From positions 1-45,569 of the forward strand of contig JAGWVT010000014.1 of the NCBI GenBank assembly GCA_018970765.1: a DNA stretch of 45,569 nucleotides, given 5' to 3'. Position numbers and translations under genes: made by a program. How positions within the stretch are numbered: the first letter of the stretch is position 1; the number at the start of each line of letters is the position of its first letter. Below are positions 3,000-29,718 of the stretch, piece after piece. Source of the stretch: Actinomycetales bacterium. Lineage in GTDB: Bacteria > Actinomycetota > Actinomycetes > S36-B12. The notes beneath the pieces were generated by a model. That model was given only the letters and a program-made list of their open reading frames with translations, did not search any database and had not been told where the DNA came from.

Positions 3000-3074
3000 T
3001 GGGGCGTCGTCTAGATGGCAGGACAGCGGACTTTGACTCCGCGAACCTTGGTTCAAATCCAAGCGCCCCAACCA
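3000..3074 (+). tRNA. tRNA-Gln (anticodon UUG)
   Basis: The gene begins one base after the terL stop. It folds as a standard cloverleaf: acceptor TGGGGCG/CGCCCCA, 3-bp D stem GTC/GAC, anticodon stem GCGGA/TCCGC with loop CTTTGAC (anticodon TTG), and T stem CTTGG/CCAAG with TTCAAAT loop. Discriminator A is at 3071 and CCA is encoded at 3072-3074. It reads CAA, a codon likely to be minor in a GC-rich host. It must be processed out of the late polycistronic transcript. Confidence 0.96.
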
Positions 3075-3719: not shown

Positions 3720-5601
3720 ATTTCGGGACTTCACGATTGGCGGCGAACGCTCTGGTGTGCCGGAAAAGTTGCCGGACAACAAGGAGCGTCGTTGGTGGAT
3801 GCTCAAGGGTTCCGATGCCGCTGACGTGATCAGCGGGACGCTGAACCTGATCCGCGATGCGCAGTCGTTCCGGGCGACGCAGTGGATCGTGAGCGCACGT
3901 CTGTACGGCAACCTGGCGCCGACGACGCTGGCGGGCGTCTCGTTCAGCAAGATTGCGGCGCAGCAGCCGGCGCTGCGTGATCGCATCTCTTACAACCTCG
4001 TGCAGAGCGTGGTGGACACGGTGTGCGCCAAGGTGACGCGCAACCGGCCCAAGCCGCTGTTTCTCACGAGTGGCGGCGACTACAAGAAGCAGCGTGAAGC
4101 CAAGAAGATGAACGCCTTCTTGGATGGCGTCTTCTACGAGAACTCGACGCACGACATCGGCATGCAGGTGTTCCGCGACGCCTCTGTGTGGGGCGACGGC
4201 TTCATCCATGTGTTTGCCAAGGGCGACCGCGTTTGCCACGAGCGCGTGATGTCTAGCGAGATCTTCGTCGACGACGTGGAGTCGCTGTACGGCCAGCCGC
4301 GCCAGATGCACCGCGTGAAGCAGGTAGACCGTCAGGTGCTGTTCGACATGTTCCCTGACGACGCGGACGTGATTGGCGGCGCCAAGCCCTCGAGGACGGA
4401 GGAGGCCGGCCGCAGCATCGTGGCCGACATGATCACCGTGCGCGAGTCGTGGCATTTGCCCAGCGGTCCCGGCGCGGATGACGGCAAGCACTGCATCACC
4501 ATCGACGGCGCGGTGCTGGGCGAGATGGAGCCTTGGCCGCACTCGTTCTTCCCGTTTGCCCGCTGCCAGTGGTCGCCGCGTCTGTACGGTTACTGGGGCC
4601 AGGGTCTGGCGGAGCAGCTTCAGAACATCCAGTTGGAGATCAACAAGCTCCTGTGGGTGATCCAGCGCAGCTTCCACCTCGCCGGCTCGTTCAAGGTGTT
4701 CATCGAGAACGGCAGCAAGGTGGTCAAGGAGCATCTGAACAACGACGTGGGCAGCATCATCAACTACACTGGGACGCCGCCGCAGTATGTGGTGCCCCCG
4801 ATTGTGGCGCCCGAGGTGTTCAGCCACCTCCAGAACCTGATCAACAAGGGATACGAACAGGCCGGCGTGTCGCAGCTTGCGGCGTCGTCGCTGAAGCCGG
4901 AAGGCTTGAACAGCGGTCGCGCCATTCGCGAGTACAACGACATCCAGACGGATCGCCTGCACGTTCCGGCCAAGAGCTACGAGCAGATGTTCATGGACGT
5001 GGCGCGGCTGTCGATTGAGGTCGTGAAGATGATCGCCGCCGAGGACAAGGGCTATGAGGTCCGCGTCCCCGGTCGCAAGGCGGTCCAGATGATTGAGTGG
5101 AAGGACATCAAGCTGTCTGACGAGGACTATGTGATGCAGTGCTACCCCGTGTCGTCGCTGCCGAGCGACCCTGCGGGGCGATTGCAGACGATCCAAGAGT
5201 ACGCGCAGGCGGGCTTCCTGTCGCCGCGCCAGGCTCGCCGTCTGCTGGACTTCCCTGACCTTGATCAGGTGGAGTCGCTGGCGAATGCGGAAGAGGACTA
5301 CCTCACGATGGTCTTTGACAAGATTGTCGATGATGGCGACTACACCTCGCCGGACCCGTTGGACGACTTGCAGTTGTCGAAGCAGTTGTGCCTTGAGTAC
5401 TACGCCAAGGGAAAGGCGAACAACCTGCGCGAGGACCGGCTGGAGTTGCTGCGCCGCTACCTCGAGCAGATCAACGAGATTGAGCAGGCGATGATGCCGC
5501 CGCCTCCGATGCTTCCGATGCCGGGAGCGACCGGAGCGCCGCTGGCGCCGCCGATGCCGATGCAGGCTAGCGATCTTGTACCGAATGTCCCGGTACAGTA
5601 A
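3709..5601 (+). CDS. Portal protein
   Basis: A 630-residue protein expected to form the dodecameric ring through which TerL moves DNA. Evidence: its place right after terL and before a scaffold-like gene and the capsid gene; its length, typical for podovirus portals; and portal-like segments such as RARQWSP-like 'FARCQWSPRLYGYWGQGLAEQLQNIQ' region (split here for length: FARCQWSPRLYGYW then GQGLAEQLQNIQLEIN) in the middle, corresponding to the stem/wing transition, followed by LNSGRAIREYND. The C-terminus is Met/Pro-rich and probably disordered. Assignment is by context and remembered resemblance; confidence is high because no other gene fits. Confidence 0.9.
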   Translation: MPIEFRDFTIGGERSGVPEKLPDNKERRWWMLKGSDAADVISGTLNLIRDAQSFRATQWIVSARLYGNLAPTTLAGVSFSKIAAQQPALRDRISYNLVQSVVDTVCAKVTRNRPKPLFLTSGGDYKKQREAKKMNAFLDGVFYENSTHDIGMQVFRDASVWGDGFIHVFAKGDRVCHERVMSSEIFVDDVESLYGQPRQMHRVKQVDRQVLFDMFPDDADVIGGAKPSRTEEAGRSIVADMITVRESWHLPSGPGADDGKHCITIDGAVLGEMEPWPHSFFPFARCQWSPRLYGYWGQGLAEQLQNIQLEINKLLWVIQRSFHLAGSFKVFIENGSKVVKEHLNNDVGSIINYTGTPPQYVVPPIVAPEVFSHLQNLINKGYEQAGVSQLAASSLKPEGLNSGRAIREYNDIQTDRLHVPAKSYEQMFMDVARLSIEVVKMIAAEDKGYEVRVPGRKAVQMIEWKDIKLSDEDYVMQCYPVSSLPSDPAGRLQTIQEYAQAGFLSPRQARRLLDFPDLDQVESLANAEEDYLTMVFDKIVDDGDYTSPDPLDDLQLSKQLCLEYYAKGKANNLREDRLELLRRYLEQINEIEQAMMPPPPMLPMPGATGAPLAPPMPMQASDLVPNVPVQ

Positions 5602-5615
5602 CCAAGGAGTGACGC

Positions 5616-6503
5616 ATGGGAGTTGAAGGAGTGATGACGAACATGACCACCGGTACGGTGGGTGGTCCGGTGCCTACGCCTACGGCGGCAGAGGTTCTTG
5701 CACCGCAGCAGGAGGCCGCGCCGGTTGAGACGCCTGCGCCTGTGGAGGAGAAGCCTGCGCCGCCAAGGGCTGATCGCTTTGCGATGCTGGCACGCAAGGA
5801 GCAGGATCTTTACCGCAAGCAGCAGGCGGTGAAGCAGCAGCAGGCGGCTATTGCCGCTCAGGCCGAGCAGATCCGCGCGTTTGAGCAGGCCAAGAAGCAG
5901 GCGCTGCTGAATCCGCTCGACGCGCTGAAGCAGCTTGGCCTGACCTACGAACAGTTGACCGAGTATGTGCTGAACGACAACAAGCCGACGCCGAATGCCG
6001 AGGTGCAGTCGGTGCGTCAGGAGCTTGAGGAGTTCAAGCGCCAGGCTCGCGAGGAGCAGGAGCGCATTCTGGAGCAGCAGCGGGAGATGCAGACCCGCGA
6101 GCAGCAGCAGATCATTGAGCAGTTCCGCTCCGAGGTGAATGAGTACGTTGAACAGCACGCTGAGAATTATGAGTTGACAAACCTTTACGGTGGTGCTCAC
6201 CTTGTATCCGAGGTTATCGAAGAGCATTTCCGCCAGACCCAAAAGCTGCTGACGATTCCGGAAGCGGCGAAGCTGGTGGAGGAGCACTACGAAGACCTTG
6301 CTCGCAAGAGCCTAGCGACCAAGAAGTTTGCAGCGACACAGCAGAAAGCGGCCTCACCGCAGGAGACGGTGGCGGCGCCGGCACCCAGGATGGGTCCGAC
6401 GCTTTCCAACGACCTGACGGCGAGTGTGGCGGCGAGCCCGAAGTCACAGCGCACAGACGCTGATCGGATCGCGGCAGCACTTGCTCGGCTCGAGGGACGG
6501 TAA
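5616..6503 (+). CDS. Probable scaffolding protein
   Basis: A 295-residue protein with a Pro/Ala-rich N-terminus, a long Gln/Glu-rich coiled coil (about residues 50-190, with runs such as QQAVKQQQAAIAAQAEQ) and a low-complexity C-terminus ending in a basic helix. Between portal and capsid genes, this composition is the hallmark of a tailed-phage scaffold that directs procapsid assembly and is then released. A GGAG site precedes ATG 5616; an ATG at 5634 is an alternative. No protease motif is seen. Confidence 0.8.
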   Translation: MGVEGVMTNMTTGTVGGPVPTPTAAEVLAPQQEAAPVETPAPVEEKPAPPRADRFAMLARKEQDLYRKQQAVKQQQAAIAAQAEQIRAFEQAKKQALLNPLDALKQLGLTYEQLTEYVLNDNKPTPNAEVQSVRQELEEFKRQAREEQERILEQQREMQTREQQQIIEQFRSEVNEYVEQHAENYELTNLYGGAHLVSEVIEEHFRQTQKLLTIPEAAKLVEEHYEDLARKSLATKKFAATQQKAASPQETVAAPAPRMGPTLSNDLTASVAASPKSQRTDADRIAAALARLEGR

Positions 6504-6633
6504 CCGCGCGAACGGCAGCGACGCTAGAACGCACCCTTTAACAACCGACTGCTAACTCTCCGCTGGTAGCGCATGGCGCGCTCGACGCGGATTTGCGGAC
6601 GCGCATGAGGCGCTGTCTGCGGTAGGTACTCAC
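6504..6633 (+). promoter_or_regulatory. Intergenic leader before the capsid gene
   Basis: This 130-bp gap is long for such a packed operon. It holds several short GC-rich inverted repeats (for example AGCGC...GCGCT around 6566-6580) but no convincing -35/-10 pair. A structured leader or processing site that boosts capsid translation is plausible; I see no coding potential. Confidence 0.3.
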
Positions 6634-27304: not shown

Positions 27305-27392
27305 TGGTAGGCGCGGTCGGAGTTGAACCGACAATTCCTCAAGAGGAAACAGGTTTTGAGTCTGCCGTGTATCCCAGTTCCACCACGCGCCC
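27305..27392 (-). tRNA. tRNA-Leu (anticodon CAA)
   Basis: On the minus strand: acceptor GGGCGCG/CGCGCCT (first pair G-T), D stem GTG/CAC, anticodon loop CTCAAAA, long variable arm with stem TTCCT/AGGAA as expected for a class II tRNA, and a perfect T stem GTCGG/CCGAC. The anticodon stem has one A-C mismatch and a G-T pair, so folding is slightly weak. CCA is encoded at 27305-27307. It reads UUG, a Leu codon used often in this genome. Confidence 0.93.
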
Positions 27393-27397
27393 GTGAT

Positions 27398-27703
27398 CTA
27401 CTTGCCGCGCTTGCGTTCAATCTTGTTGAGTTGCGACAGCGCCCACCGACGACCAGCGGTGCCGCCCCAGAGGCGCCAAGCGATGCTGGCCGCGCTGGAC
27501 TTGTCGTCCTTGGGATCAACGCTGTGACGGGCAAAGAACGACTTCATGCGCTTCAGCGTAGACTCGCTCATGCCCTTGCCGTTGGCGAGGTCGCGTGCGC
27601 GTGCGACTCCAACCTCAGTACCGCCGCGACCATGCTTCTTGCGGTCCTCGAGCGCCTTGCGAGCGATCTGCTGAACAACTGACGGCGGCTTAGGGTTTTC
27701 CAT
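27398..27703 (-). CDS. Conserved small phage protein (R/K-rich, DNA-associated?)
   Basis: A 101-residue protein starting at the ATG ending at 27703 with AAAGGAG 7 bases upstream; a longer frame to 27886 is only the shadow of the methyltransferase. Segments VGVARARDLANGKGMSESTL, RMKSFFARH and SSAASIAWRLWGGTAGRRWA resemble a domain also found at the ends of phage portal- or protease-related proteins (from memory). It overlaps the methyltransferase C-terminus by 14 bases, so the two are co-translated. Confidence 0.75.
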   Translation of the reverse strand: MENPKPPSVVQQIARKALEDRKKHGRGGTEVGVARARDLANGKGMSESTLKRMKSFFARHSVDPKDDKSSAASIAWRLWGGTAGRRWALSQLNKIERKRGK

Positions 27704-29570
27704 CGGCAGACTCCTTTGGCGCAGCATACACGGCGGCGAGGTTGTTGGCGATCCAGTTGGCGACGTTGACGGTAACAGCGTTGCCGAGTTGCCGGTAGCG
27801 GGGCGCGTCTGCCATCTGGATGCGCTTGCCGGTCTTGTCGATGCCCTCTGATGTCCAGTTGCGCGGGAAACCCTGCAAAAACTCACACTCCCTGACGGTC
27901 AAACGCCTCACAACTGACTTGCCCGACGCAAACGTTGAAGATGCATCGCGCAGTAATTCTTTGCATGGTATGGCTTCAAACACCCTGACACACTGCATGA
28001 CTTGATCGGATTGTTCTCCGACTCCAATCGAGCAGGCACAAAGCCGTTGTCCTTGACCATCAGTGGATTGCCCCATTTCTGGAACCGTTGATAGTGAAGG
28101 TCGCAGTACCCAAGCCCCTTTTGACGCCGACCGCAGATCGCGCAGGACTTGGCTGGCCTGTGCTCCCGGTTGTGACAGCCTCTGCAAATACGTTGCAAGT
28201 TGCAACGCTCGTTGTTCATGTGGTTGCCATCGACATGATGGACATCCCTTGCGCCCGTCCTGCCACATTTCACGCACAAACCTGATGGCACCAGCTTCCT
28301 TGCTTTCGCGTGCGTAGCCGACCAGCTCATAGCAGCGGACTCCTTGCTTGCAAAACCCGCTGCCATGCAACGCCTGTTGCAGTATTTCCTCTTCAAAAAA
28401 TGAAGCAAGGACTCCAAATCCCCACTCGGTAAACGCTTCCGCTCCAATGCTGTTGAGCAAGTCTCGCAGTGCTTTAACGGCGTCGGTTTCCTTGGCATCG
28501 GCATAGCCACCAATGGTATCAGAAGGCGAACCATTGGTCAATGCCACCGCCAACGTCTGGTGAGTACGCACCGGAGGCTCGCCTCCGGTATCGGCGTTGC
28601 TCATGCCTAGCGAACCTCTCGGCCCCTCCTGCCAATTGAAGGCGACCGCTCCCATGCCGACGCCATCTCGTCCGCCACTTTGGGCACGCAACGAGTTAGC
28701 GGTTCCGTCTTGTCTGTATTCTAGCGTTCTCTCCCCCTCGCGTCCTCGCACTTCCAGCGTGTATGGAATGGCCGTAAACCCATCCGCCCGCGAATAATCG
28801 TGATTGGTTGTCTCCAAGCACGCGGCCTTGGGCGGGACGTGCGTGGCTACGAGGTTGTAGTGCTCGTCACCGGCTGGCCCCCCCCCCTTGGCCCACTTGC
28901 TGGTGACTGCGCCACTTGTTCTAGGGCTGTAGCCAGCGCCAGCGGCAGTTCCTTCCCGCGCTTTTCGGCCCTTCGGAGTATCCCCGCCGCCGCTTTCGCG
29001 GAAAGCCAATACCTGCTCGGCGCGTTCGCCTCCAAAATCTGCGACAAGGAACACTCGACGACGACGCTGGGCGACTCCGAAGAAGCGGCTGTCCAAGACT
29101 CGCCACGCAAGGTCAGTCGCCCCGATGTCTGCCAACGCTTGGAGGACAGCAGCAAAGTCTCGGCCTTGATTGCTTGAGAAGGCTCCTGGGACGTTTTCCC
29201 AGATGGCGAAGTCTGGCTTGCCGTGCTGGGCGCGAAGTTCGCGAATAATTCTAACTGCCTCATGGAAGAGCCCGCTCCTTTCGCCGGCAAGGCCAGCACG
29301 TTTGCCCGCAACGCTGAGATCCTGGCAGGGCGAGCCAAAGGTCACCACGTCCACCGGCTCGAGGTTGTGTGCGCCGATCTGGCACACGTCGTCGTGCAGC
29401 TTGGCGTCAGGGAACCGGAGGCGCAGGACCGATTGCGCTTTCTGGTCGATCTCGCACGCCCAGGTGGTTTTGAATCCGGCACGCTCAAAGCCAAGATCAA
29501 AGCCGCCGATGCCGGCGAACAGGGAGCCGATGGTTTTGCCTATTGGTGGCGCAACCACAGTGTCAGGCAT
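27690..29570 (-). CDS. DNA C5-cytosine methyltransferase
   Basis: Counting from the ATG ending at 29570 (AAGGA 6 bases upstream) the 626-residue enzyme has motif I FAGIGGFDLG (18-27), catalytic PCQ (81-83), ENV (125-127), motif VIII QRRRR (168-172), motif IX RRLTVRECEFLQGFP from 555, and motif X YRQLGNAV. All catalytic motifs are intact. The frame is open upstream to 29717, adding a possible 49-residue extension. The long stretch between the target-recognition region and motif IX is shared, in another frame, with an HNH gene. Poly-G runs of 10 (28878-28887) and 9 (29582-29590) lie in or just before it. Likely protects phage DNA from host restriction. Confidence 0.92.
   Translation of the reverse strand: MPDTVVAPPIGKTIGSLFAGIGGFDLGFERAGFKTTWACEIDQKAQSVLRLRFPDAKLHDDVCQIGAHNLEPVDVVTFGSPCQDLSVAGKRAGLAGERSGLFHEAVRIIRELRAQHGKPDFAIWENVPGAFSSNQGRDFAAVLQALADIGATDLAWRVLDSRFFGVAQRRRRVFLVADFGGERAEQVLAFRESGGGDTPKGRKAREGTAAGAGYSPRTSGAVTSKWAKGGGPAGDEHYNLVATHVPPKAACLETTNHDYSRADGFTAIPYTLEVRGREGERTLEYRQDGTANSLRAQSGGRDGVGMGAVAFNWQEGPRGSLGMSNADTGGEPPVRTHQTLAVALTNGSPSDTIGGYADAKETDAVKALRDLLNSIGAEAFTEWGFGVLASFFEEEILQQALHGSGFCKQGVRCYELVGYARESKEAGAIRFVREMWQDGRKGCPSCRWQPHEQRALQLATYLQRLSQPGAQASQVLRDLRSASKGAWVLRPSLSTVPEMGQSTDGQGQRLCACSIGVGEQSDQVMQCVRVFEAIPCKELLRDASSTFASGKSVVRRLTVRECEFLQGFPRNWTSEGIDKTGKRIQMADAPRYRQLGNAVTVNVANWIANNLAAVYAAPKESADGKP
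27908..28534 (-). CDS. HNH endonuclease nested out of frame in the methyltransferase gene
   Basis: A protein of up to 208 residues on the same strand as, but in a different frame from, the methyltransferase. It shows an N-terminal zinc finger (C23, C26, C52, C56), then the HNH core CVKCG...DVHHVDGN..NN..CNLQ..CRGCHNREH (C87, C90, H99, H100, N108, C117, C120, H121), and two further C/H fingers at 131-147 and 180-198. GGTGG lies 8 bases before the ATG ending at 28534, and equally before an in-frame ATG ending at 28498 (MPRKPTP), which may be the true start. In two hand-counted stretches (38 codons) its GC3 is 24/38 against 13/38 for the overlapping methyltransferase frame, so this frame looks like the older coding frame here. 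Confidence 0.85.
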   Translation of the reverse strand: MVRLLIPLVAMPMPRKPTPLKHCETCSTALERKRLPSGDLESLLHFLKRKYCNRRCMAAGFASKESAAMSWSATHAKARKLVPSGLCVKCGRTGARDVHHVDGNHMNNERCNLQRICRGCHNREHRPAKSCAICGRRQKGLGYCDLHYQRFQKWGNPLMVKDNGFVPARLESENNPIKSCSVSGCLKPYHAKNYCAMHLQRLRRASQL

Positions 29571-29718
29571 CAGACATCCTTGGGGGGGGGTATGTAGAAC
29601 AACTGCTGCGTGAGCTGCGTTGTCGCGAGCCAGCGTATGACATGGATCTCCCGGTGACCTGTTCTGCCGATTGATCGGCGCGGTGATCTGAAACAAGTCG
29701 TACGGGATGGGCTTCATG

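Follow-up and report, generated by a model that had tools for sequence, protein, structure and literature searches.

An HNH nuclease gene, probably mobile, nested out of frame in phage C5-cytosine methyltransferase genes whose own frame stays open

We describe an HNH nuclease gene that lies wholly inside a C5-cytosine DNA methyltransferase gene, on the same strand and in a different frame, in a phage contig of 45,569 nucleotides (the window, by which we mean the whole stretch of DNA analysed). Both frames are open and are maintained so, and the phase between them is fixed across a family of such loci. In our opinion the arrangement is probably best explained by a mobile, and probably homing, HNH gene that is expressed by internal initiation, occupies the linker preceding motif IX and leaves the frame of its host open.

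The contig is identified as phage by matches to terminase, portal and major head protein, and it was binned into a 2.96 Mb assembly. It also carries a tRNA-Leu (CAA, 27305-27392, minus strand) and a tRNA-Gln (TTG, 3000-3074, plus strand). The methyltransferase gene (27690..29717, minus strand) encodes 675 amino acids with no stop through the insert and matches PF00145 (1.1e-56). The motifs GSPCQ, ENV, QRRRR and RYRQLGN are all intact in its translation, and the catalytic and C-terminal motifs of a C5-cytosine methyltransferase are found together in this single ORF. Motifs IX-X, at residues 601-665 (27723..27917, minus strand), come after the insert, match both PHROG and Pfam models and are predicted with pLDDT mostly above 90. 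As a separate observation, the plus strand has a run of ten C at 28878-28887, that is, ten G in the methyltransferase gene, within the codons for KGGGP. In one relative (L003) the frame shifts at the corresponding run of G, and in two others (L001, L002) it shifts nearby; slippage, phase variation or assembly error could each account for these changes.

An earlier note on this DNA had reported two long same-strand frames overlapping at 27908-28534, and both ORFs are indeed there, on the minus strand. However, the 627 nt (208 amino acids) of the second frame, which begins at methyltransferase codon position 2, is only a mechanical ORF, since homology and a start-site signal put the real start at ATG 28504. 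The probable coding sequence of the nuclease, in frame +1 of the methyltransferase, is therefore 27908..28504 (minus strand), 597 nt for 198 amino acids. Its HNH core, D-V-H-H...N...N-L...C..C-H...H, was located at 28160..28246 (minus strand) from an alignment of relatives, in which H89, N102, L103, C107, C110, H111 and H115 are invariant across 59 HNH proteins, 53 of them matching PF01844. The window protein has the conserved HNH residues and the zinc-binding Cys pairs; on its own it falls below the Pfam threshold, yet it matches HNH PHROGs. Its structure is predicted with a pLDDT of 93. A Foldseek search of this model against the PDB gave no significant match, and at the level of sequence the PDB yielded a weak similarity to an IscB HNH region (E=1.7e-4). 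Across the whole overlap the HNH frame has a GC3 of 63% and the methyltransferase frame one of 49%, compared with 65-75% in the methyltransferase flanks; a count over 38 codons in the earlier note (24/38 versus 13/38) agrees with these values.

The openness of the methyltransferase frame is not a matter of chance. When synonymous codons of the window HNH gene were permuted with its protein and codon usage held constant, the methyltransferase frame was free of stops in 0 of 20,000 permutations (10.0 stops expected, none seen). In the reverse permutation, with the methyltransferase protein held and its codons shuffled, the HNH frame was stop-free 48 times in 20,000, and the third frame across the overlap contains 7 stops. 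The proposal that both frames are kept is upheld, and the accompanying chance estimate of 1 in 10,000 proves conservative. Over 61 distinct genes of the family, one stop is observed in the methyltransferase frame where 488 are expected when the synonymous codons of each gene are permuted among themselves (or 663 if the codon usage of the flanks is applied), and this sole stop is the natural end of one methyltransferase ORF (L039). The other same-strand frame of the same 61 genes behaves as a null (423 stops, 404 expected), and so does the corresponding frame of free-standing HNH or zinc-finger relatives, with 304 stops against 347 expected in a tally that takes in one embedded gene (L092, 0 against 10). 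Because these two controls behave as null, HNH composition does not account for the openness.

To reach relatives in the contig collections, an alignment of three HNH proteins was required as query; the window protein as the only query found nothing there. A search of phage records with the HNH protein led to Staphylococcus phage CUB-EPI_14 and to Komagataeibacter phages, and in CUB-EPI_14, an isolate phage, the match falls under an annotated DNA-cytosine methyltransferase. Searching IMG/VR with the methyltransferase instead yielded a gene (L007) invaded at the matching place. The three-protein alignment gave 75 loci in IMG/VR and 9 in genomes, and full-length members of the genome set came from Peptococcaceae, Dokdonella, Acidobacteriia, Virgibacillus, Methylococcaceae and Treponema. 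After near-duplicates and partial, zinc-finger-only matches were dropped, 64 distinct loci from IMG/VR, GTDB genomes and named phages were left, with hosts that span several phyla. Wherever the HNH is full-length, a shift of two bases on from its frame gives a stop-free frame that belongs to a longer ORF. PF00145 is matched by 58 of the 64 host ORFs, the remainder being mostly truncated at contig ends or broken. What had been an unverified impression, that similar inserts occur in other phage methyltransferases, is borne out by these loci and by a comparable published case (PMC11855218).

A profile search over the collected loci found 76 near-complete HNH domains (at least 90 model positions), duplicates counted, and at every one of them the methyltransferase frame is open and in one common phase. 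The case that would speak against the joint maintenance of the frames, a methyltransferase frame interrupted over the overlap while the HNH frame is intact, was looked for and occurs in none of the 76, which supports the earlier suggestion that the enzyme tolerates an insert of about 200 residues. None of these domains is free-standing, in a set that comes from pattern-based scans, which divergent or free-standing members may escape. Komagataeibacter phage phiKX1 was considered as a free-standing HNH and rejected, its HNH being embedded in a methyltransferase-like ORF.

Some host genes are not intact, since in about six relatives the methyltransferase is broken directly downstream of the overlap, at RRLTPL. 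In L060, L074, L083, L084, L088 and probably L063 the methyltransferase frame ends exactly at this motif, past the HNH overlap, and where the sequence was traced LECERLQG resumes within a few bases, either past a stop or in a different frame. This suggests a second break or insertion hot spot within the motif; Rfam intron models have no match there. L060 has an extra zinc-finger ORF (5946-6560) downstream. L088 has a second HNH domain of the family (4228-4665, plus strand) upstream of the first, with the corresponding frame likewise open, and possibly holds two hidden nucleases in one methyltransferase region. Further, L110 retains a 47-amino-acid remnant of the HNH reading frame (4980-5120, plus strand) within an open ORF of 545 amino acids, a candidate for a decayed copy whose host frame has outlived the nuclease.

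The HNH gene appears to have signals of its own at both ends. A start codon stands exactly 12 codons ahead of the first conserved Cys in 53 of 61 loci. In the window a Shine-Dalgarno-like GGTGG (28507..28511, minus strand) lies directly upstream of ATG 28504 and 8 nt before a second ATG at 28498; its predicted pairing with the anti-Shine-Dalgarno sequence, -6.0 kcal/mol, is moderate. The family mean is -6.7 kcal/mol, against -3.7 kcal/mol for other ATGs of the same methyltransferase genes (p=5.6e-11). At the other end, the HNH stop TGA (27908..27910, minus strand) is formed from the V-R codons GTG AGG of the methyltransferase motif VVRRL. Of the 48 loci that have the motif, 30 have the HNH stop at an identical position within the V-R-R-L-T codons, and there the HNH ending S-E-D-stop is the out-of-frame reading of V-R-R-L-T; the window stop comes three codons earlier.

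The insert occupies a variable linker before motif IX or X, and methyltransferases that lack it, for which the earlier note had proposed a search, do exist at 60-75% methyltransferase identity. The four closest relatives of the window methyltransferase (72-75% identity over the best segment) are without it. So are Staphylococcus phages IME-SA4 (methyltransferase 75% identical) and SpP (60%) when compared with CUB-EPI_14, and Salmonella phage MET_P1_001_43 when compared with phiKX1. The existence of such relatives favours the view, already put forward, of invasion by an endonuclease gene that left the methyltransferase unbroken. The tree of the HNH and that of the methyltransferase each reject the other, with log-likelihood differences of 555 and 1059, in a whole-tree test that is strict and to whose conflict alignment error contributes. 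Individual pairs point in both directions: L069 and L071 share 93% of their HNH and 56% of their methyltransferase, while L049 and L095 share 68% of the methyltransferase and 47% of the HNH. HNH identities still correlate with methyltransferase identities (Spearman 0.59), so the gene does not move constantly. Its distribution is patchy and its tree conflicts with that of the host gene, as for a homing endonuclease, and the comparison fits horizontal movement of the HNH gene between methyltransferases.

The mechanism that we propose would be as follows. A mobile HNH gene, with zinc fingers around a beta-beta-alpha-metal core, would insert between the target-recognition region and motif IX in a phase that lets the methyltransferase frame cross it without a stop. 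The nuclease would be translated from its own internal start and would usually end on a stop within the conserved VRRLT codons, while the methyltransferase would be translated through the insert and gain about 200, mostly unstructured residues in a permissive loop. The nuclease would cut insert-free methyltransferase genes near VRRLT and spread by homing. On the strength of the sequences we infer that the nuclease and the methyltransferase are both produced, the latter being active in its enlarged form, and that cleavage and homing take this course.

What the methyltransferase makes of the insert is a further matter. AlphaFold2 predicts the two cores of the window enzyme (residues 60-240 and 601-665) with pLDDT above 90 and gives low confidence over residues 242-596, most of the insert being below 50. 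The exception within this region is a helical stretch at about residues 411-439, with pLDDT of about 70-77. Methyltransferase residues 413-439 are encoded together with the first zinc-finger region of the HNH protein (28401..28481, minus strand), and in this dual-coded stretch the methyltransferase frame retains its Trp and Phe through a third-base bias. The T that yields Trp is present in 54 of 58 loci where 22 are expected; among GC-rich loci it is retained in 24 of 26 despite variation of the HNH residue (N, S, R, D, G); the CGT that yields Phe is present in 41 of 58 loci, 10 being expected. Both columns fall within the predicted helical stretch. It is possible that there is selection on the residues of this helix, or that a DNA element lies there. 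We entertain, with appreciable doubt, the reading that this widespread phage gene family exists as overprinted pairs only, with a homing nuclease in a fixed alternate frame, equipped with a start signal of its own and a stop in the host motif, and a host frame selected for openness and for the F..W residues. If true, it would mean that a selfish element and the enzyme which hosts it are durably encoded together.

One may go further and suppose that the insert is a selected part of the methyltransferase, for instance a helical element with an effect on target recognition, that both frames are selected for their sequence and that the HNH gene is no longer mainly selfish. The Trp and Phe columns and their place in the helix speak for such a durable dual function, but the DNA-level element just mentioned could account for them. 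Over all contexts the third-base bias is modest, and testing gene by gene gives a weak result (p=0.003; control, 0.026). The greater part of the insert has no confident structure, and many methyltransferases do without it. In distant pairs, moreover, synonymous conservation of the HNH gene is no higher than that of the single-coding N-terminus, and for this reason most of the insert seems to be tolerated, not selected. We therefore consider this extension unlikely.

HNH nucleases do act as restriction enzymes beside C5-methyltransferases, and in the collected loci the two are always together; hence it could be argued that the pair is a compact restriction-modification system in which the HNH enzyme is matched to the enclosing methyltransferase. 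A matched pair should be co-inherited, and the trees conflict instead. In addition, the HNH gene is found in quite different methyltransferase subfamilies, and the majority of relatives of these methyltransferases have no HNH gene, which makes this account very improbable. Even less credit can be given to removal of the insert from RNA or protein as an undescribed intron or intein, with the open frame incidental. Group I introns commonly carry homing HNH genes, but no Rfam intron matched the window region up to E=1, nor any at gathering score in 12 relatives; an intein profile is absent from the window methyltransferase protein and intein models are matched by 1 of 64 host ORFs. The start, its signal and the stop of the HNH gene lie at the edges of the insert and so leave little room for splicing parts, and an insert that is spliced out would put no selection on the host frame to stay open. 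Although the assembly behind the window is of metagenome type, with 238 contigs, an assembly artefact or chance overlap can be dismissed, since 64 distinct loci show the arrangement, some of them in isolate phages such as CUB-EPI_14, and chance openness is refuted by the permutations (0/20,000) and by the single stop in place of 488.

A mobile, probably homing, HNH gene in an open host frame stays our preferred reading. Homing genes normally do the host gene no harm because an intron or intein carries them. The loci described here point to a third way, which bypasses both: the gene is unspliced and the host frame merely open. Given 64 loci, a start signal that can be measured and controls that lack the insert, an odd mycobacteriophage case becomes a general and testable mode of persistence of mobile elements, and the family offers a large natural set in which to measure dual-coding constraint. 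There is also a practical consequence for annotation. Many phage methyltransferases harbour an unannotated nuclease, and an apparent conserved methyltransferase domain, LRxLRxxIGEEAFxxWG..., is largely the HNH gene read out of frame.

The principle has already been published for mycobacteriophages, as the ShiLan domain, an HNH hidden in their methylases (Gosselin 2023 PMC9957025; Arsenault 2025 PMC11855218). Both cases have an out-of-frame HNH with flanking zinc fingers in a phage methylase whose frame is open, both are patchily spread, and in neither was an intron or intein found. Nevertheless, the C5-methyltransferase family is a separate lineage. Its host enzyme in the window is of the PF00145 C5 type, whereas ShiLan gp65 has a DPPY motif, and the window HNH is read from methyltransferase codon position 2, that of ShiLan from position 3. 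The two HNH proteins are only remotely similar (hhalign probability 63%, 27% identity over 109 columns). A start-site signal is seen in the C5 family and none is reported for ShiLan; stop avoidance is very strong in the former, while ShiLan alone gives a weak effect in the like direction (P=0.019). The hosts of the C5 family, from several phyla, are far wider. Our literature search, with subscription papers and preprints mostly outside it, found no account of the C5 family. A second published methylase with an ORF for an HNH or DNA-binding protein in another frame, Pacc40 gp60 (PMC11855218), we liken to the window arrangement by its published description alone. Phage HNH homing endonucleases, of the I-HmuI type or free-standing (PF01844, PHROGs 1271 and 7545), share with the window protein a zinc-binding HNH core, a sporadic presence and a site adjoining a conserved motif of the host gene, but the window HNH has no intron and is nested in the alternate frame of an open coding sequence. 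Finally, phage C5-cytosine methyltransferases (PF00145, PHROG 116) have in common with the window enzyme all catalytic motifs and motifs IX-X, but the window enzyme has about 200 added residues before motif IX, which are the HNH gene read out of frame.
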